From positions 186,001-250,000 of the forward strand of contig CAJJBP010000009.1 in NCBI GenBank assembly GCA_905182425.1: 64,000 nt of DNA, read 5' to 3'. Positions 1,126-27,302 of the stretch are shown in pieces. Under the pieces are notes generated by a model. It was not told the origin of the DNA and ran no database searches. It was given only the letters and a program-made list of their open reading frames with translations. The number at the start of each line of letters is the position of its first letter. Position 1 is the first letter of the stretch. Source of the DNA: an uncultured Planktomarina sp. (GTDB taxonomy: Bacteria > Pseudomonadota > Alphaproteobacteria > Rhodobacterales > Rhodobacteraceae). Made by a program: the position numbers and the translations under genes.

Positions 1126-1155
1126 TAATGGTGGGTCGTGAGAGGCTCGAACTCC
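1126..1155. repeat. distal attachment site (30-bp direct repeat)
   Basis: Thirty bases identical to 10721-10750, covering the CCA end, acceptor strand and part of the T arm of tRNA-Val. After one extra T the match continues for four more bases (CGAC) and then stops, and the bases just left of it also differ. No other tRNA parts are present, as expected for the distal att copy left by site-specific integration. Confidence 0.85.
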
Positions 1156-1312
1156 TCGACTTTCTAATATAATTAAAGCTTTATGTTAATTAATATACTG
1201 ATATATATGCATTTTTATACTATTACTTCATTTAATCTTAATCACTTAATCTGTAAAAGTAATGTCTATAGTAATGTCCATAGTACTTGCATTCTGTTTA
1301 GATACTTGGCAG

Positions 1313-2929
1313 TTATTTTTTGTACTTCTTGTACTTCTTAGGCATTAATATCTCATCTGGCGTGTACTGCACAGACGTTGATTTACTAGGTTTAACATTG
1401 AAGAACTTGTTGTGTTTATTCAGTCTGTTTAGATACCCAGTAGTTCTAATCTGGGCTTTAGGTAGATCAGCCATACGATCTAAATAGAAAACATAATCTA
1501 AGTGTCTCCACGCAACAGCGTCTTGATACATAGGCATGTTCTGTTTGTATTTAGTCACATCCTGCCCTGTGATGGAAACCCAAGCATCTTTCATAGCAGT
1601 TGAAAGTTTATCACGTTGGCTAGTTTGAACTATGAAACTGTCGTGGACAGAAAGCACAGGCGTATTACTCAGTAAGAAACGCTTGATTACAAACTCAACA
1701 ATCTTTCCATCTAAGTTCATTAGCTTCGTACCAGCACCAGTAGCTATCTGATCTGCGATAATGCTGTGCCTTGCTTTGATGCTATCAAGTATTTTACTCA
1801 GCACAGGGTTAGTAAAACTGAACTCTTCGTCCAATAAAGAGTAATCAAACTCTGATCTAAATGCTTTAAACAACGAAGCTTCATCACGAGCATTTAACGC
1901 TAAAAGAAGTAGTTTCTTAACAATCTCCCTAGCAACTTTACTGTCATCAATTCCAGCAACAGCAATGTCATATGGCCCTACTTGGTTTTCTTTCCAGTAA
2001 TCCACACCAGCATTGGCGTAGGCTAGAACTGGATGCAGACTTGAGAAGTCTAGCTCACGTGTCTCTTCATCATTAATCAGTATCTTCTTACGGTGATCCT
2101 CGCCTATCCGTTGCCAGAAGCCAACTAATGACCTTCCAGAATTTGTAAAAGAAGAGTTATTAAATATACGCCTAGTCCACTTAGACTTGTGAGTAATATG
2201 AACATGATGAGGCTTATCAGGGTCTTTACTACCCGCCCTCTTCTCAATCGTTAAAACAGGCGTTTCAGCCTCACCTATATCAATAAAAGTACGTTCTAAT
2301 AATTCATTGTATTCTTGGACAATCAAACGTTGAGATTGAGTTTCTTCTGTCTCATCATAACCAACAGGTTTAGCCTTAACTTTCTTCTTCCCTTTTATCT
2401 TTTCAACAGGTCCATGTAATACGATTACTTCTCTCTCATCTTCATTCCATATCATAAGCTCATGGAAAGCAGCCTTTTCAAACATAGAAACAAGTAAAGG
2501 TTCAGCCCATATACGAGAAACAAAACCATGAACGAAGCCCTCTTCAGCTTCCTTACCTTTAACGTAACCAATCAAACCGTTTTCACGTAAAGTATGAACA
2601 ACACCAATAGTTTTAGCGGAGATATTTAATTCATTGTAACGAGAGTCATTAGTACCAAAACTTTTACTGTAGAAGTCTCGTGTCATAGTAACTGAAACGT
2701 TTAAATCAGGATCAGTTATCCAAGCAACATATAAGTCCAATAAAACTAATTTAATATGACGTTTACTAACACTTTTCTTTCCATTCTGACTACTAAAGTA
2801 AGCGTCATAGATTAAAGAAACGAAGTCATTTACTTCTTTGTAATTAGACCAAACATGAACATCCAAAACTCTTGAATAGTTTAAATCTCTTGGAGCGTTA
2901 TTACTAATATTTGTATTTTCTGTAGTCAT
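1313..2929 (-). CDS. polymerase palm-motif protein of an integrative element
   Basis: 538-residue protein, no signal peptide. Residues about 79-125 (TMTRDFYSKSFG to ENGLIGYVKG) look like a winged helix. The C-terminal half carries motifs resembling single-subunit polymerase palms: RELDFSSLHPVLAYANAG at 291-308, with Asp294 in the place of motif A; a helix rich in R/K (VAREIVKKLLLLALNARDE, about 332-350) where a nucleotide-binding helix would lie; and PVLSVHDSFIV at 424-434, with His429-Asp430 like motif C of family A DNA polymerases and T7-type RNA polymerases. I recall this as a conserved, mostly unannotated proteobacterial family, often near integrases. A role in replicating the element is inference. 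It stands alone on the minus strand at the distal end, and the tail is Lys/Tyr-rich (KKYKKYKK). Confidence 0.75.
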   Translation of the reverse strand: MTTENTNISNNAPRDLNYSRVLDVHVWSNYKEVNDFVSLIYDAYFSSQNGKKSVSKRHIKLVLLDLYVAWITDPDLNVSVTMTRDFYSKSFGTNDSRYNELNISAKTIGVVHTLRENGLIGYVKGKEAEEGFVHGFVSRIWAEPLLVSMFEKAAFHELMIWNEDEREVIVLHGPVEKIKGKKKVKAKPVGYDETEETQSQRLIVQEYNELLERTFIDIGEAETPVLTIEKRAGSKDPDKPHHVHITHKSKWTRRIFNNSSFTNSGRSLVGFWQRIGEDHRKKILINDEETRELDFSSLHPVLAYANAGVDYWKENQVGPYDIAVAGIDDSKVAREIVKKLLLLALNARDEASLFKAFRSEFDYSLLDEEFSFTNPVLSKILDSIKARHSIIADQIATGAGTKLMNLDGKIVEFVIKRFLLSNTPVLSVHDSFIVQTSQRDKLSTAMKDAWVSITGQDVTKYKQNMPMYQDAVAWRHLDYVFYLDRMADLPKAQIRTTGYLNRLNKHNKFFNVKPSKSTSVQYTPDEILMPKKYKKYKK

Positions 2930-3192
2930 AATAAAATAATAAATAGAAATAACTTATATCTACAATACTTAAATATTCTTAACTTTATCTTAACTCTATT
3001 CCATTACCCAGACTTTTCCATATCTAAGTTTTAAAGATAGTATAAATACTTATATAAAGCAGTTAGTTAAGGAGACTAAGCCCTTAACAAAGGTCCTGTT
3101 TTAGTGTATAACTTATCCATATTAAAAGGCTACTCAGAGCTACAGCTTTGACCCCTTTTCACCCCCCATAAAATTAGAAAGGTACTCATATT

Positions 3193-3354
3193 ATGGACTC
3201 AGAATCTAATCAAAAGTTCTCACATTACCTCGTAATGAAAAGAACTAATCCAAACCAATACTGGACTAAAAGAACACACGAACAAATGACCAAAGCCTAC
3301 AAGCATCAGGGCAAAGCGTTCTTCGATATATACAATAGGGAGCTTAATCCGTGA
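3193..3354 (+). CDS. small hypothetical protein, 53 residues
   Basis: ATG at 3193 is preceded by AGAAAGG about 10 bases upstream. The 53-residue product is basic and polar (HYLVMKRTNPNQYWTKRTHE in its first half) with no membrane segment. Its stop codon overlaps the GTG start of the next gene by four bases (GTGA, 3351-3354), a translational-coupling arrangement that supports both genes being real. Family not recognised. Confidence 0.5.
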   Translation: MDSESNQKFSHYLVMKRTNPNQYWTKRTHEQMTKAYKHQGKAFFDIYNRELNP

Positions 3355-3749
3355 ACATATTCTCATTATTACAAAAGGCAGAAAAACGGCTGCGAACAAA
3401 TGATCCACTTTACCATGATCAAGCTGACACACTGTTAGGAGTATTACGATCATTTGGGATTCTGCCTTACAAACGATCAAGTCTAAATGGAAGTCTGCAT
3501 AAACTGGTAGCAGCGACTATCGTGGAGGCATTTGATGCAGATACCACTTTAGACATTGGAACACGCAGAGCAGGAACATTTCATCGTTACGGTTTTAGTA
3601 CAAAGATAATCTCATACTATGACAAGATGGTATCTGAAGGATTACTCGTATCACGCACTGGTAAAGCTTCTGGAGCATTAGTTATTGGTGAACTAATTGA
3701 TGCCTTACCTAGACGATGCAAAACACGCACTAGTGTAATAATATTTTAA
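3351..3749 (+). CDS. hypothetical protein, 132 residues
   Basis: GTG start at 3351 overlaps the preceding small gene by four bases. The product is basic and looks soluble. Residues about 70-118 (RRAGTFHRYGFSTKIISYYDKM to VSRTGKASGALVIGELID) alternate helix and strand in a way that could form a small DNA-binding or winged domain, but I do not recognise the family. Position just downstream of the divergent gap to the palm-motif gene would suit an element regulator or replication accessory; that is inference only. Confidence 0.5.
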   Translation: MNIFSLLQKAEKRLRTNDPLYHDQADTLLGVLRSFGILPYKRSSLNGSLHKLVAATIVEAFDADTTLDIGTRRAGTFHRYGFSTKIISYYDKMVSEGLLVSRTGKASGALVIGELIDALPRRCKTRTSVIIF

Positions 3750-3950
3750 ACGTAAATAGTTGTAAACAATTACAATAAAAATGTAGTTGAAACAATACCC
3801 TAACTATACTTCACACTCCGTCAACACGCTGGTTTTTATAGTAACAGATACTGTTAAACCTCAGTTGCTGACTTTCCAAAAAGTACAATGACAAAACTCT
3901 TGGAAACTGTGTGAGATCAAACCGCCCTATAGATAAAAAAGGAATTAAAT

Positions 3951-4472
3951 ATGGCAGGATTAATGAATCAGACCAACACCAAAAGTGAATTACTCACGGC
4001 AATTAGAACAGCTTTTGGCCCACCATCAGGTGGAGCACAGAGCCTACAGCAACGCATTGAAGCACTGACACAGAGCCAACTGCAAACGGTACTCACGTAT
4101 GCTCAACTAGTAAAAATGGCTCAGAGTTATAGCTTTGGTAATGCTCAAACATACAAGCAGCTAGTGGACAGCATGTATCCTAATATGCAGTTCAGTCTAC
4201 GGAGCATCGTAGCAGACCTCTTACAGGATGCAGAGCCAATAGAAGTAGTTTCACCAGTAGAGCCAGAGCCTACGCCACGTGAACTATCAAAGGAGTTCTA
4301 TGATAATCTCACACCGCTGCCAGCACTTAAGCCAGCCAAGCGTTACCCTGAGACAGACGCAGAGATCTCAGAATTACTTACTAATTTAATGAGGGAGGCT
4401 TACGGTGATGAACGGAACCGACAAAGCCAGTGTTGGACTAAAGCCAAAAGCAAATGCTCCATTCAAAGATAA
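3951..4472 (+). CDS. hypothetical phage-like protein, 173 residues
   Basis: ATG at 3951 follows an AAAAAGGAATTAAAT ribosome site. The product is soluble, Gln/Leu-rich and helical in its first 80 residues, then has an acidic Pro-rich linker (VSPVEPEPTPREL) and a last helical part. Its final 68 bases overlap the next gene in another frame, and the last 20 residues are basic with two Cys, unlike the rest, so the natural end may be earlier. Family not recognised. It heads a tightly packed run of plus-strand genes that includes a lysin, so a phage-like structural or packaging accessory role is possible but unproven. Confidence 0.5.
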   Translation: MAGLMNQTNTKSELLTAIRTAFGPPSGGAQSLQQRIEALTQSQLQTVLTYAQLVKMAQSYSFGNAQTYKQLVDSMYPNMQFSLRSIVADLLQDAEPIEVVSPVEPEPTPRELSKEFYDNLTPLPALKPAKRYPETDAEISELLTNLMREAYGDERNRQSQCWTKAKSKCSIQR

Positions 4473-4914
4473 GGCGGCATTCCTAGCAGCTATGAACACC
4501 AGTGGCGAAGGAAGTTGCATGCCGATCTGTGGAATCTCACACAAGATAATCTTAGCTCAGGCGGCTTTAGAAAGTTCATGGGGTAAAGCTGCTTCAGGTT
4601 CCAACAACCTAATGGGTATCAAGAGTCATGGCTTAGCTGGTGGTAAGGCTGTCGCTACAACGGAGGTCATAGACGGTAAAACCGTAAAACTTACTGACAA
4701 CTTCCGTCAATATAATAGTCCAGAAGATAGCATCAGGGGATATGGTAGTTTTCTAAAGAGCAATAAACGCTACCGTCACTTTCTCAATGCTGGAGCAGAT
4801 AACGAGGACGCTCAACTTACTGCTTTGCAACAAAGCGGATATGCTACCGACCCTAAGTACGCTCAGAAGCTAAAGTCTATTATCAAGGGTTTGCCTAGCG
4901 GTGATGACGCATGA
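4405..4914 (+). CDS. GH73-type N-acetylglucosaminidase (lysin, FlgJ-like domain)
   Basis: 169-residue protein with a glucosaminidase domain over most of its length. ALESSWGKAASGSNNLMGIKS (first half at 54-60 with the presumed catalytic Glu56; NLMGIK after it) and FRQYNSPEDSIRGYGSFL are signatures of the GH73/FlgJ C-terminal family, which cleaves peptidoglycan glycan strands. There is no signal peptide, so export would need a holin or another route. Start is GTG 4405 or ATG 4408; a strong GAGGGAGG at 4391-4398 supports either. It overlaps the previous gene by 68 bases and the next by four (ATGA). In this context it is best read as an element-encoded endolysin or a remnant tail-associated muramidase. 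Confidence 0.8.
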   Translation: MMNGTDKASVGLKPKANAPFKDKAAFLAAMNTSGEGSCMPICGISHKIILAQAALESSWGKAASGSNNLMGIKSHGLAGGKAVATTEVIDGKTVKLTDNFRQYNSPEDSIRGYGSFLKSNKRYRHFLNAGADNEDAQLTALQQSGYATDPKYAQKLKSIIKGLPSGDDA

Positions 4915-5189
4915 TCCACACATCAATAACCCTTCCAGAGCATCACGCAGACTATCCCAAACTTTGGCAATCCACATGTAAGAAGTTTCGTATCATCCGT
5001 TGCTGTGATGACATCCAATATATCTTTCAAAGTTTCCGTAAACCTAAATGGAGATCACTGAGTTTTCACATGTACTACGAAAGTTTACTATACCGCTGGC
5101 ATAGTATGCCCGAACTACCTGCAGAGCCTCCATATAAGGTGGTCTGTAGAGGGGTTTCACGTTCTCTGGACCTTGTGGTGAGGGTCTAG
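4911..5189 (+). CDS. small hypothetical protein downstream of lysin, 92 residues
   Basis: ATG at 4911 overlaps the lysin stop by four bases (ATGA), indicating coupled translation. The 92-residue product is basic and aromatic-rich (FRIIRCCDDIQYIFQSFRK; HMYYESLLYRW) without an obvious membrane span. Family not recognised. Its position right behind a lysin would suit a lysis or structural accessory gene, but it lacks the transmembrane segment expected of a holin. Confidence 0.5.
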   Translation: MIHTSITLPEHHADYPKLWQSTCKKFRIIRCCDDIQYIFQSFRKPKWRSLSFHMYYESLLYRWHSMPELPAEPPYKVVCRGVSRSLDLVVRV

Positions 5190-5203
5190 CACAGGAGGGG
5201 GAA

Positions 5204-5332
5204 ATGATTATTGAGATGACTGCCAAGGACATTGAGGAGCAGCCAGAGATGTCATCTGATGAGATTATCAAAGGCGAAGTAGAATGCTCACAGTGGCAGG
5301 AAAGGGATGACATATGGTGGGCGAGTAGGTAA
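5204..5332 (+). CDS. very small acidic protein, 42 residues
   Basis: ATG at 5204 lies just after a very strong ribosome site (AGGAGGGGG, 5193-5201). The product is acidic in its first two thirds (MIIEMTAKDIEEQPEMSSDE) and ends with a Trp-rich DDIWWASR. It is too short to classify. The strong ribosome site 14 bases after the preceding gene's stop, in a compact run of coupled genes, is the main reason to believe it. Confidence 0.45.
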   Translation: MIIEMTAKDIEEQPEMSSDEIIKGEVECSQWQERDDIWWASR

Positions 5333-5443
5333 GTTTGCTCAACAAGCTGCTTGAAGTAGGTAGAGTGTGTATCGGACTTTGAGCTGAACTATTGAATGGT
5401 ATTGAGTAGCGTTGAACTGCTATGAACGGATTGAAAATATCAG

Positions 5444-6517
5444 ATGACTAAACCTATAACAACAAATCGTCTTCACGGTTTAGACCTTGCTCGTTTTTTG
5501 GCGTATGTTGGAATGGTTATCGTTAATTTTAGTGTGGTGATGGGTGCTGACGATGCTGGTGGATTGTTTGGCTCAATGATTACTTCTTTTCAAGGGCGTG
5601 CGGCAGCGACTTTCGTTGTTCTTGCGGGTGTAGGATTAGGGTTATCTCTGGCTCCAAAATCTAGCAATGACTCAACGACATTTTTGACTAAAGGCGTTTG
5701 GCTAACGACTAAGCGTGCTGGCTTTTTATTGGTTGCTGGTTTGCTCAATATGTTAGTGTTTAGTGCTGATATTCTTCACTACTACTCTTTCTATTTCTTT
5801 TTTGGTGCCTTGTTGGCATCTAACTCAAAGACTAAGTTGATTGGTTTCATTGTGCTGCTTAATGTTGTTAGCGTATTTTTACTGCTAACTTTAGATTTTG
5901 ATAAGGGGTGGGATTACAGCACTTTAGAGTATGCTGGGTTTTGGACGCCTGAAGGCTTTATAAGAAACCTTTTCTTTAATGGCTGGCATCCAGTTATTCC
6001 TTGGCTTGGTTTTCTGCTATACGGAATAATTATCAGTAGGATAAATCTACACAGCAGGGTTTCGCAAAAGCGATTGATAATTTGGGGATTACTAGTGTTT
6101 GTACTGACTGAAATGTTAAGCAAATTAATGTTGCGACTAGCTAGCGATGAACTTACGCAAATATTATTTGCTACTGATTCAATACCTGCGATGCCGCTTT
6201 ATAGTCTCGCTGGTATGAGTGTGGCAAGTGTAATAGTTGGTATATGTTTGATGTTTGGTGATAGGTTCGCAAACAGCAGAATGCTGAGATTATTAGGCGC
6301 CCCAGGAAAGCAAACATTAACGCTTTATATTGCTCACATATTAATAGGTATGAGTATATTGGATGAATTGGGTATGATTGGCGTGGCTCAACCTCCTGCT
6401 CTTGTGTTGGCAGTGGCATTGTCCTTTGTCGCAGTAATGTTGATTTATGCGAATATATGGCAAGCCTATTTCAAGCGAGGACCTTTGGAGGCATTAATGA
6501 GGAAGGTGACTGGCTAG
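5444..6517 (+). CDS. DUF418/HGSNAT-like polytopic membrane protein
   Basis: 357-residue integral membrane protein with about nine or ten hydrophobic segments. The start NRLHGLDLARFLAYVGMVIVNF matches the first helix of the heparan-alpha-glucosaminide N-acetyltransferase/DUF1624 and DUF418 (YeiB-like) families (first part RLHGLDLARFLAYVGMV), and GAPGKQTLTLYIAHILIG near residue 285 matches the DUF418 helix. Members are presumed acyl transfer or transport proteins of the cytoplasmic membrane; the substrate is unknown. The ribosome site is weak. It lies between the phage-like run and the relic strip, with no adjacent partner gene, so it is best read as cargo. The assignment rests on these two motifs. 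Confidence 0.65.
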   Translation: MTKPITTNRLHGLDLARFLAYVGMVIVNFSVVMGADDAGGLFGSMITSFQGRAAATFVVLAGVGLGLSLAPKSSNDSTTFLTKGVWLTTKRAGFLLVAGLLNMLVFSADILHYYSFYFFFGALLASNSKTKLIGFIVLLNVVSVFLLLTLDFDKGWDYSTLEYAGFWTPEGFIRNLFFNGWHPVIPWLGFLLYGIIISRINLHSRVSQKRLIIWGLLVFVLTEMLSKLMLRLASDELTQILFATDSIPAMPLYSLAGMSVASVIVGICLMFGDRFANSRMLRLLGAPGKQTLTLYIAHILIGMSILDELGMIGVAQPPALVLAVALSFVAVMLIYANIWQAYFKRGPLEALMRKVTG

Positions 6518-6589
6518 TGACTTCCCTGTACGTTTCTGTTCGCTCTCTTGCTTGATACAAACGAACAGAAACCTCAACGTAATAAGGGA

Positions 6590-6855
6590 TGATGGTGGCT
6601 TCTTGGGCTTTGCAGCTTTGATTGCATCCTTAGGGCTGAGTGTAGCTTGGCTCGGACTATTCAAGGCAAGACTGGGGCAAAGCATAGAGCTATTCTTGCA
6701 TCATTCTTGATACTATCATCACTTGGTCAGGTGGAACTACAAGCCAAGACACTACAGGCTTCAGCTTCTTCCCTGCGTCTGGTGCGTTAACTATCAAAGC
6801 AGTTAGAGCTAAGCTAGTTCAAGCAAGCTATCTGACTGAGTTTGACGAAATGTAA
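6590..6855 (+). pseudogene. fragmented phage-like ORF
   Basis: No single frame is open, but three consecutive pieces read like one protein through shifts: GGFLGFAALIASL (about 6594-6635), LARTIQGKTGAKHRAILASF (about 6650-6710) and WSGGTTSQDTTGFSFFPASG continuing to YLTEFDEM and a TAA at 6853-6855. The last piece resembles the C-terminal part of a phage structural or recombinase-associated protein, but I cannot name the family. It merges into the serine recombinase fragment that follows. At least two indels are needed, so this is probably a relic. Confidence 0.35.
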
Positions 6856-7085
6856 TGTCCTCAGTAGCTCAGTTTGAAAGAGAAATGATGCTGGAACGCC
6901 AACGGGAAGGTATTGCTAAGGCTAAGTCTGAAGGGAAATACAAAGGTAGAAAGCCAACTGCACGTGCCAAGACTGACATGGTTAAGCTTGCGTTGGCTCA
7001 AGGAGTAAGCAAGGCTCAGGTGTGTCGGGATTTAGATATTAGTAAGACTAGTTTGTATCGCATCATTGGTGAGTTGAAGGGGTAG
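6855..7085 (+). pseudogene. C-terminal fragment of a serine recombinase (resolvase/invertase)
   Basis: 76 codons matching the end of a resolvase/invertase: SSVAQFEREMMLERQREGIA is the end of the catalytic domain and E helix, GKYKGRKPTARA is the hinge, and VSKAQVCRDLDISKTSLYRI is the C-terminal helix-turn-helix. The N-terminal catalytic domain with the active serine is missing; upstream sequence belongs to the unrelated fragment before it. Without the catalytic domain it cannot recombine DNA, though the HTH could still bind. I read it as the remains of an earlier mobile element nested in the island. Confidence 0.75.
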
Positions 7086-7093
7086 AAAACTAT

Positions 7094-7258
7094 TTGCAAA
7101 AGCATAGCAATCTAGCTGAACGGATGCGCTATAAGATTGGGGTGGAGCCATTACGCAATGTATTGGGTTTCATTTATCAAGGGTATTGCTCTGACTTGTT
7201 TGGTTCTCTGGCTGATGTGCTGAGTGAGAGCAAACACCGCGGTGACCAAAGGAGATAA
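7094..7258 (+). CDS. possible small ORF after the recombinase fragment
   Basis: An open frame of 54 codons from a TTG at 7094 to TAA at 7258, product with mixed charge (SNLAERMRYKIGVEPLRNVL). There is no clear ribosome site, and the frame is open without interruption from within the recombinase fragment. It may be a fragment of a larger gene whose start was lost. Family not recognised. Confidence 0.25.
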   Translation: MQKHSNLAERMRYKIGVEPLRNVLGFIYQGYCSDLFGSLADVLSESKHRGDQRR

Positions 7259-7267
7259 ACGCACTGT

Positions 7268-7585
7268 TTGGTATGTTTAAGAAAAAGGCTGGCAAGCGAA
7301 GATGATAGCTTCGGCTCGAATGGTGAAATTTTATCTAATGGTCCTCACTTCAAGTGGAATCTTGTCGCTATTTCCGGATTGGTCGTAGCGATTATAGGTT
7401 TGAATTTATGGCTTATTCCTGTTTACGGATTAGATGGTGCTGGATTTACTTTGGTTATAGCCTATGCAATTTTCAACACCACCAAGGCCATTTATTTATG
7501 GCATAAAGAGCGCATTCAACCTTTTGGCACTGCGCAATACAGAATATGTACCAAATGTGTCCACGACGATTTATTATTTGATTAA
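7268..7585 (+). pseudogene. C-terminal fragment of a polysaccharide flippase (Wzx/MATE-like)
   Basis: Up to 105 codons from a TTG at 7268. From about residue 34 the product has two hydrophobic helices (NLVAISGLVVAIIGLNLWL and FTLVIAYAIFNTTKAIYLW) separated by IPVYGLDGAG. This loop and helix pair is typical of the C-terminal end of polysaccharide-biosynthesis (Wzx, MVF superfamily) flippases, in which IP.YG..GAA...... is recurrent. The other ten or so helices are absent and the first 30 residues do not fit. It ends four bases into the convergent metallopeptidase gene. I read it as the tail of a transferred surface-polysaccharide gene. Confidence 0.55.
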
Positions 7586-8841
7586 TACTTTGGTAATATA
7601 GTCATGGCAGTTAATGGGTTTTTCTTCAGAAATTCTGCAAACTCTGAATAGAATGCGTCAGATGACTTCTGAAAAGATTTCTGAAATGCCCCTTCCCAAC
7701 CTAAACTCTCTAAATTCGGATAAAATGTTTTTAGCAAAATATCTGGATTAGTTTGATCTATCAGGTATGCAATTGCCCAAGCTCCACCGTCGTAGAAAAA
7801 ATTCCTACATGGCCCATCGTAGTTAGTATTCGCCATCTGCGATATGCAATCATTTTGATAATTGTCTTTTTTTGCTTGTTCAAACTTTCGTTTCATTGCT
7901 TTTTTGAAATCATATTTGTTACGGCCATTATTAATCCGTTTTAGTTTTTTCTCAGAAACTAATTTGGTATGCGTGGCAGAAGCCATATACTCTGCACCTC
8001 CTTCCATGAACCAAACAGGACCTAGCAGCACATTTCTTGCAAATTTTATAGACCGGACGTGAGCGTGTTGAATTGCATGAAAATACTCATGCATTATAAC
8101 TTTTTGATCATCAGCCCCAGAATTACCCAATTTATTTTCAAGACCAAGTGGAAGAGAACTTGAGAAATTATGTATGCCCCAATCAAAACCGCCATTATGT
8201 CCAGCATCCATACGTGAGTTTCTGCTTGAAAGCGCATTCGCTCCAATTTCCCAGTAGGACATGAGATTATGGTTACTTGCAATTTGAGTATGACGACTAA
8301 AGCAAGATCTATAATACAGGTCTTTTCTCTCAGCTCGACGCTTACAGTATTTCTCAATTAATTTTGTTGCTGCAGCTTTATCTGCTCCCATAACCCAATA
8401 CTCTACTGGACCATAATTCCCCCACTCAGCAGCCGCAGCGTCTAAAGTGGCCTCAATTGTTGACTTTGTGCTGGCTCTTAGGTCACTGGCAACAAATACT
8501 TCAGCTGGGCATTTAATAGGTTTGCTCCACGTCGAAGCCAATTTGCCACCATTGCGTTTGTGAGGTTTAGCTGAACATCGTTTTATGTTTATGCCCAAAA
8601 GCTTAAACTCATTACTATCTAATAATCCATCAAATTTAAGTCCTTTGGTAGATAGATATTCAATCACCGCATTTTTAGTACTGTTACCCCAAATACCATC
8701 AGCAGCTCCTGCATTAAAACCCAGTTCATTTAGTTTCTTTTGAGTGGCGAGGACATTGTCAGAGGCTAGAATTATTGAAGGTATCAAAAAAGTTATAATC
8801 AAAACAATGATTGAAACTAGGTGATTAACTTTAGTGATCAT
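7582..8841 (-). CDS. secreted protein with peptidoglycan-binding domain and HExxH metallopeptidase domain
   Basis: 419 residues. An N-terminal hydrophobic segment (about 8-26) ending in LASD looks like a signal peptide. Residues 31-65 (LATQKKLNELGF to DGIWGNSTKNAVIEY) form a PG_binding_1 repeat. The rest contains HEYFHAIQH at 251-259, a zinc-binding HExxH, followed by WFMEGGAEYMA with a glutamate (280 or 284) in place for a gluzincin third ligand. Four to six Cys suggest an extracytoplasmic oxidised protein. It should act in the periplasm or outside on peptidoglycan-associated protein or peptide substrates; the substrate is unknown. It lies just downstream of the integrase on the same strand, as typical element cargo. 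Confidence 0.75.
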   Translation of the reverse strand: MITKVNHLVSIIVLIITFLIPSIILASDNVLATQKKLNELGFNAGAADGIWGNSTKNAVIEYLSTKGLKFDGLLDSNEFKLLGINIKRCSAKPHKRNGGKLASTWSKPIKCPAEVFVASDLRASTKSTIEATLDAAAAEWGNYGPVEYWVMGADKAAATKLIEKYCKRRAERKDLYYRSCFSRHTQIASNHNLMSYWEIGANALSSRNSRMDAGHNGGFDWGIHNFSSSLPLGLENKLGNSGADDQKVIMHEYFHAIQHAHVRSIKFARNVLLGPVWFMEGGAEYMASATHTKLVSEKKLKRINNGRNKYDFKKAMKRKFEQAKKDNYQNDCISQMANTNYDGPCRNFFYDGGAWAIAYLIDQTNPDILLKTFYPNLESLGWEGAFQKSFQKSSDAFYSEFAEFLKKNPLTAMTILPKY

Positions 8842-8901
8842 AATGACTTACCTCAATTTAAGTTTGTAGGAATATTTCTACAAAAAAGTCCAATAAAAAA
8901 G

Positions 8902-10619
8902 CTAACGTAGGTTTTCACTACCTAGAAAAGATATGTCTAGCTTTGAAATAGCCTCAAACCATTGCTTGAAACCACCCCCACCATAGTTGCTACGACTAGC
9001 CGTTTTATTCTCTCCATGACCTGTAATGGCATCATGCACTTCCTCGTTAACGCCTAGATCACGCATCATAACCTTAAACGTTCTACGAAAACTCCTGATA
9101 GATTTTATATGGGTGTGGAACAAGCTCATGCAGTGTTGGGTTCACTACGTAATTAATATCCGTTGAACACCTGCCTACATCGTCTTTAACGTAATCAAAC
9201 AGCCTACCAGTAGATTTCTCTGGCAATACTAGGTCAGGATGCAACGGCACTTGGCGTTTAGATGACAAATTCTTTACCTGCACCTGCTCCGTTTCAGTAT
9301 CTAATGTAGTGAAGAACCTGATGCCTTTATGTTCTGTGTCGTTAAACCTTTCCCATGTCATGTTCCCCGCCTCTGATGGGCGCATACCTGTTGTGGCAAG
9401 TATAGACAGCAACAACCTTTCCTGTGGCTTCCAATCATATGTGAAAATAGTTCTTAGTTCTTCCATACTATATGGGTATGTTTCCTTTGGCTTCTCTCCA
9501 TAATTCCTAAGATCAAGATCACGAAATGGGTTTATATTAATATAGCCCATCTCAACGCAGAATTTTAAAAGGTTCTGCACCCCCCACAAATAGTCCTTTA
9601 ATGTCTTGTTTGACCTATCTGGATGTTCTTCCAATACATTACGGATGTATTCGTATCCGTGTTTGGGTTTGATCTCATCAAGCTCCATATCACCCATTAC
9701 ATTTACAAACTGTTTAGCCCATCTCGTCAGCTTACGCTGAGTGTCTAAACTATCCTGTTTAAGACGCATATCTGCAAGGTAGTCTTCCATTACCGAACTG
9801 ACTGTTACTACGCCTTTTGGGACCACACGTGCTGGGCGGCTAATAGACTCAAACTTTTTAGTTATTTCTGGGCTGCGGGTTATATGTAAGTCAGGCACTA
9901 TCTTACCATCCGCTAGTATCATGGCATCGTGTGGCCCCTGTACAAATGGTTCTATTCTTGGCTCAGGTAGCCCCTGCTCTCTTGCAGCCGTAATAAGCAA
10001 GTCTGACCAAAAGTTATGGACTATTTCTGTTCTATAACGCCCAGCATACCCTCTTTGTTTTGGTGTATATTGAGAACCCATTTGTGCAGCTTTAGTTTTG
10101 GCTACGACAACCTCCAGTTTGTTAGGTTTCCCTGTCTCAGCCGTAAGTAACTTGGAAAAGTGGGTTCCTAATGCAGTGAGGGTTGCTAGTGTATTTAACT
10201 CTTCTTTAGTACCAGCGTTCATTACCTGATCAGAATAAACATCACAGTAATTCTTGAAGTTTAGTAGCTGCTGATAATTAGTGGAAGGTTTCAGATCAGG
10301 AATGTCCTTATGCTTAAACTCTGTAGCCAACCCATAAATAGTAGCCAAAGCAAATGCTGTCTGTAGTTGTATTATGTTTTGCAGCAGCGTCATCTCTTGC
10401 CGCATCAAACTTATCATATATCTGCTGAGCAAGGTCATGTTGCTTTCGCTGTGCCGCCTTAAGGTCAGTTGTACCAGTAGATAATTTTATGTCTCTCCTA
10501 TTACTAAAGAGATGCCGCATGTGGGCAGGAACACTGATTGTCACATACCACTTACCTTTGACCATTCTCACACTTGATGCAGGATACTGATAATAAGGAT
10601 TATTGGCGTTTCTGAACAT
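8902..10619 (-). CDS. int: tyrosine recombinase/integrase of the island (two single-base frameshifts)
   Basis: Phage-type integrase reading away from tRNA-Val. The N-terminal arm/core-binding part (10619 to about 10370) has YPASSVRMVKGKWYVTISVP. The catalytic part has Arg in ATTGMRPSEAG, Lys in SSKRQVPLHP, Arg in SFRRTF, His in AITGHGE and the presumed nucleophile Tyr in SNYGGG. Two shifts break the frame: one extra base near 10370 (DS-FALATIYG joins after correction) and one in the AAAA run at 9103-9106. Removing two bases leaves exactly 572 codons, so an intact 571-residue enzyme with sequence errors is as likely as a pseudogene. The first His of the usual HxxR is not evident. It presumably excises and inserts the element at the 30-bp repeat. 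Confidence 0.85.
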
Positions 10620-10720
10620 AGTTATTACGATAGGTATTACCTAAAGTAATGTCCATAGTACTGTCCAATAGCACTATAAAGACTAGTAAATTAAGGATAT
10701 CAGTGTAATATATGGGAATA

Positions 10721-10799
<79 letters not shown>

Positions 10800-25067: not shown

Positions 25068-26261
25068 ATGAACATCCATGAATATCAAGCCAAAGCCCTA
25101 CTACGTAGCTATGGTGCACCGGTGAGTGATGGGCGTGTTGTCTTGAAAGCGGATGAAGCCAAAACCGCTGCCAGTGAAATGGACGGCCCTTTGTGGGTTG
25201 TAAAAGCGCAAATTCATGCAGGTGGACGCGGTAAGGGTAGTTTTTTAGAAGCAGATGCCGGTAATGCTGGCGGAATCCGCCTGGCGCACTCTGTTGTCGA
25301 CGCAGAAAAAGAAGCCAAAGCGATGCTTGGCAGAACTTTGGTCACCAAGCAGACGGGCCCTGTCGGCAAGAAAGTTAATCGCATTTATATCGAAGACGGC
25401 TCAGGCATAGAAAAAGAATTTTATTTCGCAATTCTAGTCGACCGCCAATCAAGCAGAGTATCTTTTGTGGCCTCTACAGAGGGCGGCATGGATATAGAAG
25501 AAGTGGCAGAAACTACTCCTGAGAAAATCCTCTCCTTTTCGATTGATCCTACCACAGGGTACCAAGGATACCATGGTCGTCGCATCGCGTTTAACCTGGG
25601 CCTTGCGGGCAAACAAGTGAAACAATGTGTAACCCTCTTGGGTAATCTTTATCGCCTGTTTGTAGACAAAGATATGGAAATGCTAGAAATAAACCCACTG
25701 ATCACCTCAGACAGCGGCGATCTTAAGTGCCTTGACGCCAAAATGAGCTTCGACGGCAACGCTTTGTACAGAAATTCGGATATAGCCGAGTTGCGCGATA
25801 CTACTGAAGAAGATCCAAAAGAACTTGAGGCAAGTAAATACGATCTTAACTACATAGCATTAAACGGTGAAATTGGCTGTATGGTCAACGGCGCAGGCCT
25901 TGCAATGGCAACAATGGATATCATCAAGCTTTACGGAGCAGAACCTGCTAACTTCTTAGATGTGGGTGGTGGCGCAACTAAAGAGAAGGTGACTGAGGCT
26001 TTTAAAATTATAACTTCTGATCCGCAAGTTAAGGGTATTTTAGTTAATATCTTTGGTGGCATCATGCGCTGTGATGTTATAGCTCAAGGGGTAGTAGCCG
26101 CCGTAAAAGAAGTTGGCTTGAAGGTCCCATTGGTTGTACGACTTGAGGGAACAAATGTCGATGAAGGCAAACGAATTATCAACACATCCGGACTAGACGT
26201 CATAGCGGCAGAAGATCTTAAAGATGGTGCACAAAAAATAGTATCGGCAGTTAAAGGCTAA
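25068..26261 (+). CDS. sucC: succinyl-CoA ligase, beta subunit
   Basis: 397 residues from the ATG at 25068, which has AGGAAAA upstream and starts [19 protein letters not shown] as in the family; the open frame extends 48 bases further up. ATP-grasp domain with [11 protein letters not shown] and MLEINPL, CoA/ligase domain with [14 protein letters not shown] and [14 protein letters not shown]. With SucD it interconverts succinyl-CoA and succinate with nucleotide phosphorylation in the TCA cycle. First gene of the sucCDAB-lpd operon; upstream lies the palindrome pair. Confidence 0.96.
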
Positions 26262-26420
26262 TGCAAAAGCAAGCAATGATTGAGCTACATATTAGGATCT
26301 TGGATTTTGCAATGCTCCACAATTCTATTTCACAGATGTATTTAACAATTGGAAAACCGTATCAGGACTAACATTTCTATGCGGAAAAGTTTCTGAAACA
26401 AACTAATTAGGAGCGACCAA

Positions 26421-27302
26421 ATGGCCGTACTCATCGACGAAAACACCAAGGTGATCTGCCAAGGCTTTACTGGCAGCCAAGGCACTTTCCATTCCGAGCA
26501 GGCCATTGCTTATGGAACAAAGATGGTTGGAGGCGTGACACCAGGCAAAGGTGGTCAATCTCACCTGAACCTTCCCGTGTTCAATTCGGTGCATGAAGCA
26601 AAAGCAATTACAAAAGCAAATGCAACTGTAATATACGTGCCACCCCCTTTCGCAGCAGACTCCATCCTCGAAGCAATCGATGCTGCGATGGAAGTTATTG
26701 TAGCGATCACCGAGGGTATTCCTGTTCTTGACATGATGCGCGTCAAACGTGCTCTGGAAGGATCTTCGAGCCGCCTTATTGGCCCCAATTGCCCGGGGGT
26801 TATCACACCAAATGCCTGCAAAATTGGTATAATGCCTGGCCATATCCACCGCCGCGGTTCAGTTGGTGTTGTGTCACGCTCAGGCACTTTGACTTATGAA
26901 GCTGTAAAACAGACGTCCGATGTTGGCCTCGGACAATCTACCTGTGTCGGCATTGGTGGCGATCCTATCAAAGGCACTGAGCACTTAGACGTCTTGGAAT
27001 GGTTCTTGGCTGACGATGAAACACAAAGCATAATTATGATTGGTGAAATTGGTGGTTCAGCAGAAGAAGACGCCGCCCAATTTCTTGCCGATGAAAAGAA
27101 AAAAGGACGTTGGAAGCCAACTGCTGGTTTTATTGCCGGCCTTACGGCTCCGCCTGGCCGTCGTATGGGGCACGCAGGTGCAATTGTTGCAGGTGGCGTG
27201 GGCGGTGCGGATGATAAAATTGAGGCCATGAAATTGGCAGGTATTGTTGTTGCTGAAAGCCCTGCTGGGCTTGGCGAAGCAGTTCTCGCAGCTATTGGAT
27301 AA
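26421..27302 (+). CDS. sucD: succinyl-CoA ligase, alpha subunit
   Basis: 293 residues. CoA-binding motif [19 protein letters not shown] at the N-terminus, INPNC-type site [20 protein letters not shown], and the phosphorylated His in [13 protein letters not shown]. Partner of SucC. ATG at 26421 follows AGGAGCGACC. The 159-bp gap after sucC and 222-bp gap before sucA contain no convincing gene, though all genes are in the same direction and likely cotranscribed. Confidence 0.96.

Follow-up and report, generated by a model that had tools for sequence, protein, structure and literature searches.

The TV-Pols of mobile elements were defined in 2008 by Iyer, Abhiman and Aravind, who proposed that these proteins combine primase and polymerase activity (PMC2579912). 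A subset with an N-terminal domain adjoins resolvases, lambda-type integrases or transposases, alphaproteobacterial members were named, and phage Ma-LMM01 was said to carry a TV-Pol element (PMC2579912). CcPol, which is counted as a TV-Pol, primes DNA with an SSB partner (PMC10061031, PMC7581432). Self-priming has been proven for CcPol-MP, an enzyme from a mobile element whose polymerase Iyer and colleagues placed among the TV-Pols (PMC7581432). In 2024, a paper in Virol J introduced the name divPolA2 for polymerases of phages and considered that they might be repair polymerases or RNA polymerases; TV-Pol is mentioned once, in the background (PMC11348598). No paper linking divPolA2 to integrative islands was found in the open-licence literature.

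The window analysed here, a 64,000-nucleotide stretch of the genome of an uncultured Planktomarina sp., contains a polymerase gene that the initial annotation took to be element-borne. This proved correct, as 30-bp direct repeats, one of them at the 3' end of a tRNA-Val gene, bracket the polymerase gene and delimit an island of 9,625 bp (1126-10750); the integrase occupies the tRNA side, and 160 bp separate the polymerase gene from the opposite repeat (Table 1). The left repeat matches the tRNA-Val region of a same-genus genome at 97% over 34 bp. In the same-genus genome without the island, similarity begins at 10722 and the tRNA-Val locus retains the neighbouring gene (tblastx); neither an integrase nor the polymerase was found in the 15-kb stretch around it, and the left flank of the island showed no match there. 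The segment 1255-1282 matches positions 8045-8072 of locus L032, the source of the closest relative of the polymerase, at 93%, and the L032 site lies between a tRNA-Thr gene and the integrase; no attachment repeat of at least 17 bp was found in the L032 stretch. No iterons (exact direct repeats of at least 10 bp) were detected within 2900-3360, 1126-1330 or 10600-10750, and a single 10-bp palindrome was seen in these segments, at 1174. Judging from its reading frames, the integrase of the window is probably inactive, unless the frameshifts are sequencing errors. A second, decayed copy of the polymerase gene, with 29% identity and interrupted by one TAG and four TAA codons, is found elsewhere in the same genome (G000:C4:54254-55543, locus L002), which may have been visited by such islands more than once.

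Table 1. Features of the tRNA-Val island, in window coordinates
Feature	Position	Strand	Remarks
Distal attachment repeat, island left end	1126-1155		30-bp copy of tRNA-Val 3' end
18-bp direct repeat inside left end	1270-1287		probable integrase arm site
divPolA2/TV-Pol-type polymerase ORF	1313-2929	-	538 aa, ATG start
Predicted polymerase domain layout, N-terminal part			winged-helix-like N-terminal domain ~15-170; conserved arginines R254, R266; palm motif A D294
Predicted polymerase domain layout, C-terminal part			fingers R334, K338, N346; palm motif C H429-D430
92 bp upstream of polymerase gene	2930-3021	-	within L032-similar block; candidate promoter or binding site
Cargo region	3351-8841		ORFs 3351-3749 and 3951-4472 without Pfam match
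Cargo: glucosaminidase	4405-4914
Cargo: DUF418 protein	5444-6517
Cargo: resolvase fragment	6855-7085
Cargo: peptidoglycan-binding domain and collagenase-like (M9) peptidase region	7582-8841
Tyrosine integrase	8902-10619	-	split over three frames, with two frameshifts when compared with the intact L032 integrase (555 aa)
18-bp repeat, second copy	10645-10662		adjoins integrase start; putative function as for first copy
Attachment repeat, island right end	10721-10750		3' end of tRNA-Val
tRNA-Val (tac), integration target	10724-10799	-

The polymerase gene is intact and shows a codon-position pattern of purifying selection. Its product is identical to the L032 protein at 368 of 527 residues, with codon-position identities of 0.748, 0.833 and 0.51, and the similarity at the DNA level (68.9%) covers the block 1323-3021. 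A chance open reading frame was ruled out by this codon-position pattern and by the conservation of residues in 82 sequences. The sole clear library match of the protein is to phrog_4756 ("unknown function"; E 2.1e-50), which is matched by all 82 rows of the family alignment; the NCBIfam search gave no match, and no exonuclease domain was matched in Pfam. The three motifs to which the initial annotation had drawn attention, LDFSSLHP with Asp294, VAREIVKKLLLLALNARDE with R334 and K338, and VLSVHDSFIV with His429-Asp430, are all present in the reading frame. The family profile, built on alignment A3, also matches the divPolA2 representative AUR84708 (E 4.5e-42, positions 25457-26698 of MG592441.1), and the matched stretch overlaps the annotated coding sequence of AUR84708.1 (25469-26761). 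By sequence, divPolA2 and the island proteins are thus one family, and the island protein appears to fit the integrase-linked type of TV-Pol. The suggestion that the locus represents an undescribed system cannot be upheld, since the family is already in print, as TV-Pol (PMC2579912) and through the phage members named divPolA2 (PMC11348598).

The polymerase palm proposed from the motifs was recovered in structure prediction. The AlphaFold2 model, computed with 82 sequences, reached a pLDDT of 89.0 and a pTM of 0.88, and its 37 Foldseek matches in the PDB at E <= 0.001 were family A DNA polymerases and one T7 RNA polymerase. The best was 5dku_B (E 6.0e-05), the apicoplast polymerase, Bst and Taq were among the matches, and T7 RNA polymerase (8dh4_M, E 5.2e-04) ranked 20th; the TM-scores of the PDB matches were low (0.2-0.3), with approximately 260-290 aligned columns in most rows. 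Against predicted viral proteins, matches to proteins of Aeromonas and Rheinheimera phages reached E-values down to 1.7e-23. The sequence profile searched against PDB chains produced chance-level matches only (best E 0.22). A PolB, retron or reverse-transcriptase relative was also considered, and none appeared among the best 50 PDB structure rows. In the model, short strands at 254-256 and 264 suggest a pre-palm hairpin carrying R266, and one long helix (195-212) may be compared with the two-helix coiled-coil thumb of TV-Pol. The N-terminal domain, modelled alone, is predicted to contain helices plus strands (pLDDT 87.4). The winged helix assigned to it initially is plausible and not proven: T7 RNA polymerase came first among its top PDB rows, in which winged-helix proteins (PadR, GntR-type, TFIIE, RTP and AbfR2) were frequent, and no PDB match was better than E 0.20.

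The family alignment A3 comprises the window protein and 81 of the 105 loci obtained from profile scans; the duplicates L001, L025 and L026 and two short pieces had been removed beforehand. The two palm aspartates singled out in the initial annotation are conserved, D294 in 82 and D430 in 81 of the 82 sequences. G265, R266, R280 and E292 are likewise invariant. One sequence departs from the rest at each of K338, H429 and S431 (81 of 82), whereas H299 occurs in 80, N346 in 79 and R334 in 78 sequences; at position 342, 74 sequences have Leu and 4 have Met. The fingers aspartate is present in 69 of the 82; Gly318 takes its place in the window protein. The 24 loci outside the alignment, some of them fragments or near-duplicates and others omitted for no particular reason, were scored afterwards: D294 was found in all 24 (one with a second copy having Val), as were R266 and K338, H299, H429 and D430 in 23 each, and N346 in 22. 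Exceptions to this pattern were also observed. Loci L015, L017 and L019, from three genomes of approximately 1.4 Mb, keep D294 and D430 and are without K338 and H429, in L110 D430 is replaced by E and K338 by Q, and in L105 D430 is replaced by Q; these five are possibly non-catalytic offshoots, as far as their residues indicate.

The motifs could be placed in the register of DNA polymerase I. In hhalign comparisons with a set of 13 alphaproteobacterial PolA proteins and T7 gp5, D294 fell on the motif A aspartate and R334 and K338 on RxxxK; the alignment is weak (E 0.002, probability 13.7%, score 35.6; reversed control 25.4, E 0.044). In this weakly aligned register, His299 faces Klenow Glu710, Leu342 faces Phe762, and Asn346 faces what we take to be Tyr766. 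Five residues after the motif A aspartate (D+5), the PolA set has Glu in all 13 readable rows, and at K+8 of motif B it has Tyr in all 14 readable rows. In four readable sequences out of five T7-type RNA polymerases, these positions, which were left free, are Gly at D+5, Met at K+4 and Tyr at K+8. The family, with His at D+5, Leu at K+4 and Asn at K+8, thus fits neither the PolA nor the T7 RNA polymerase pattern. Glu710 and Phe762 are the residues with which DNA polymerase I rejects ribonucleotides (PMC7581432). Because the equivalents of both are replaced, ribonucleotide tolerance is expected, and the residue pattern suggests relaxed sugar choice for the island family.

The best reading of these features, to which we give about an even chance, is that the island protein is a putative primase-polymerase with which replication of the island begins once it has been excised. 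The same features also bear on another reading, in which the protein would be a T7-like single-subunit RNA polymerase with promoters of its own, recognised by the winged-helix-like domain, from which island or phage genes are transcribed. The DNA-polymerase Glu is lost, K+4 is not Phe (Leu or Met in 78/82; Met in 4/4 readable T7-type enzymes), Pfam RNA_pol gives a match over motif C below the cut-off (E 0.042), T7 RNA polymerase is among the PDB matches at E <= 0.001, and the divPolA2 authors keep the possibility (PMC11348598). However, the K+8 Tyr of the T7-type enzymes is Asn in 79 of 82 sequences, hhalign against the single sequences of T7 RNA polymerase and T7 DNA polymerase gave no convincing alignment, with nothing meaningful for the former, and in Shewanella phage KASIA a T7-type RNA polymerase is already encoded near the gene (PF00940, 7.5e-57). 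We therefore consider an RNA polymerase unlikely.

Relatives of the polymerase occur in phages and in genomes. At E <= 0.01, tblastn found them in 241 of 50,697 phage records (115 Rheinheimera, 98 Vibrio) and in 4 of 72,556 plasmids. Genome matches numbered 20 of 289 in the class (E <= 1e-4, own genome included), 24 of 398 in the phylum sample (own genome included) and 17 of 100 in the family of the window (E <= 1e-5; fragments and own genome included). Single-protein scans of genome contigs and viral contigs gave no relatives; profile scans with alignment A2 gave 79 genome loci (80 of 207 relatives kept) and 26 viral loci. When 97 sequences were placed in a midpoint-rooted tree, one clade comprised 65 genome members (support 0.881) and another 12 viral members (support 0.996), and the remaining viral and cellular sequences were intermixed. 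All four phages tested that carry a relative have a separate PolA match, over the cut-off in three, and none of the four has a PolB match. A role as sole replicase in these phages is thus unlikely, and the separate PolA fits a specialised role for the relative; the genome of the window also has its own PolA besides the island polymerase. In KASIA (L030), the block that includes the gene also encodes a BCS1-like AAA ATPase and a protein annotated as DNA primase, and in Vibrio phage ICP1 (L230, MW794141.1:56119-57423) the relative QVV97268.1, annotated as "hypothetical", matched the KASIA protein with E 1e-5.

The recurrence of such genes near integrases, stated in the initial annotation, was supported by a survey of loci. 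Of 20 genome-hit loci, 16 had a tyrosine integrase, as opposed to one of 20 random stretches of 20 kb (Fisher p 2.2e-6), with the caveat that the integrase model was built from integrases near the polymerase and could overlook integrases of other types in the random set. The hit loci consisted of 19 of the 30 places from the phylum-sample search and one from the family search, chosen mainly for their distance from the ends of contigs. Three of these stretches fall short of 19 kb, and one or more of them duplicate a named locus. The random regions were stretches from polymerase-carrying contigs of the class genomes and of the window's own genome. tRNA genes occurred at 14 of 20 polymerase loci and in 6 of 20 random regions (p 0.026), and 32 of the 34 named loci that measure 18 kb or more had a tyrosine integrase. 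When the 1,728 open reading frames of 111 loci were clustered, the integrase cluster spanned 51 loci and the next one 9. Between polymerase and integrase trees, the Mantel correlation was weak (r 0.137 after removal of two near-identical loci), and 58 of 2000 permutations equalled or exceeded it; among the closest polymerase pairs, the integrases were close in 9 of 11 and not in the other 2. The two genes travel together over short distances and are reshuffled over long ones.

Repeats of tRNA ends bracket the polymerase gene in 27 of the 111 loci, with the integrase inside in 25 of them; this count retains the 17-bp repeats of L064, L076, L077 and L090, among which chance repeats are possible, and leaves out L045, whose repeat does not bracket the gene. 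Small islands hold few further genes, as in the 5.0-kb island of L096, with integrase, polymerase and open reading frames of 80 and 354 aa, and the 5.5-kb island of L103, with polymerase, integrase and open reading frames of 125 and 218 aa. The genes that recur in small islands of this tRNA-targeting kind are these two, polymerase and integrase. A stretch of 2.46 kb in L053 (818-3274) is bounded by a 20-bp tRNA-Ser repeat and contains the polymerase and no integrase; its one further open reading frame of at least 80 aa (147 aa) overlaps the polymerase and has no Pfam match. This stretch is perhaps a non-autonomous island. Genes for Peptidase_C14 (caspase-domain) proteins lie in or near the islands of L096 and L045.

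The position of the gene within the islands invites the question of whether the enzyme fills gaps or processes ends, completing recombination or repair at the attachment sites rather than acting as a replicase. It lies within approximately 510 bp of an attachment repeat in 7 of the 27 bracketed islands, that of the window included, and repair is one suggestion of the divPolA2 authors (PMC11348598); however, the gene lies farther away in the other 20 islands, and no integrase was present in 21 of the 26 viral loci within the stretches examined, which makes this role distinctly unlikely. The content of the islands bears on the remaining proposal of the initial annotation, a polymerase-like enzyme with an antiphage function; a variant of it is a function in phage anti-defence, and reverse-transcriptase defence systems offer a parallel. 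Variable cargo and the presence of relatives in diverse tailed phages would be in keeping with it, but no PADLOC model matched the polymerase at E <= 10, no Pfam or PHROG family, defence or other, recurred in more than five cases among the 146 other island proteins of at least 120 aa from the 27 islands, and the gene is linked to the integrase and not to any cargo family. The proposal found no support, and we regard it as very improbable. No helicase recurred among the same 146 proteins beyond a Dda-like PHROG in two.

Under the preferred reading of a primase-polymerase, we infer the following sequence of events. After excision, the winged-helix-like N-terminal domain would bind the island circle, the palm would start synthesis on it, and the island would thereby be copied and kept while out of the chromosome. 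The enzyme may tolerate ribonucleotides, with His299 and Leu342 in place of Glu710 and Phe762 and Asn346 in place of Tyr. The copy in the window is probably itself immobile because its integrase is frameshifted.

A broader version of this reading, which we hold possible but doubtful, is that divPolA2 and the integrase-linked TV-Pols constitute one ribonucleotide-tolerant primase-polymerase family with the signature D(x4)H, K(x3)L and K(x7)N, which would make, with a tyrosine integrase, a nearly two-gene replicating island, would be exchanged with phages, and would provide PolA-derived priming without DnaG, AEP or an evident SSB partner. The TV-Pol side of the signature was sought in Ma-LMM01. 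A HMMER search gave no match at E <= 10. Among open reading frames of 200-1200 aa compared by hhalign, MAP_030 came first by a small margin (E 0.0022, score 32.3 versus 28.2 for the next). This protein, encoded beside transposases and without a Pfam match, has His at D+5, Leu at K+4 and Asn at K+8 and is without an equivalent of R334; from the adjacent transposases, it is probably the TV-Pol of Ma-LMM01. The shared signature comes from this one protein, which counts against the best explanation, as do Gly318 in the window protein, the members with altered active sites, the lack of a recurrent helicase family, the weak correlation of polymerase and integrase trees and the missing attachment repeat in the L032 stretch.

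Taken together, the island is ordinary in kind and informative in detail, being a well-bounded element that carries a member of a described family. The polymerase family is already published, but two of its traits seem to have received little description, the unusual active site and the wide link to integrases that target tRNA genes; new here are the unity of divPolA2 with the island proteins and an active site in which two ribonucleotide-rejecting residues are replaced. To our knowledge, it is rarely known how small integrative islands persist after excision. If the enzyme does prime or copy the excised circle, a gene annotated as "hypothetical" would be the replication gene of many islands. 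The comparison also ties the names divPolA2 and TV-Pol together and yields a residue-level prediction on sugar selectivity in the PolA superfamily that is directly testable.

Compared with the described enzymes, the island protein has its palm and fingers motifs in register with PolA; it differs from DNA polymerase I in having no exonuclease match, a different N-terminal domain, His at D+5 and Asn at K+8, and the DGSCxG motif A and K+8 Tyr of T7-type RNA polymerases are absent from its family. Like CcPol-MP, it is a family A polymerase on a site-specifically integrating element, with replication of the element probable (PMC10061031, PMC7581432). However, CcPol keeps Glu710 and Phe762, where our family has His (80/82) and Leu or Met (78/82), and uses dNTPs, and is therefore an imperfect model for the island enzyme (PMC7581432); PolA-SSB primases such as CcPol-MP are characterised by a cognate OB-fold SSB and a helicase in the operon, whereas no helicase family recurs near ours among neighbours of at least 120 aa. 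With TV-Pol, the island protein shares a minimal family A core, an N-terminal globular domain and integrase neighbourhoods (PMC2579912), as well as the two palm aspartates (D294, D430) and the pre-palm arginine (R266, 82/82). The fingers Asp and RxxxK of TV-Pol correspond in the island family to an Asp in 69/82 (Gly318 here), R334 in 78/82 and K338 in 81/82. The TV-Pol N-terminal domain was predicted to be all-helical, whereas the island model has helices and strands, and the D5 helicase linked to other TV-Pols is not recurrent in our islands (PMC2579912). With regard to divPolA2, the word "integrase" is absent from the main text of the paper, which deals with phage members, whereas ours lie on tRNA islands, and the divPolA2 N-terminal domain was reported there to be without similarity, whereas ours looks winged-helix-like (PMC11348598, main text). 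In both, nevertheless, the polymerase is an extra one beside a regular DNA polymerase (4/4 phages and the genome of the window), and the island protein is predicted to share with divPolA2 a palm without canonical thumb or exonuclease and an N-terminal domain of its own.
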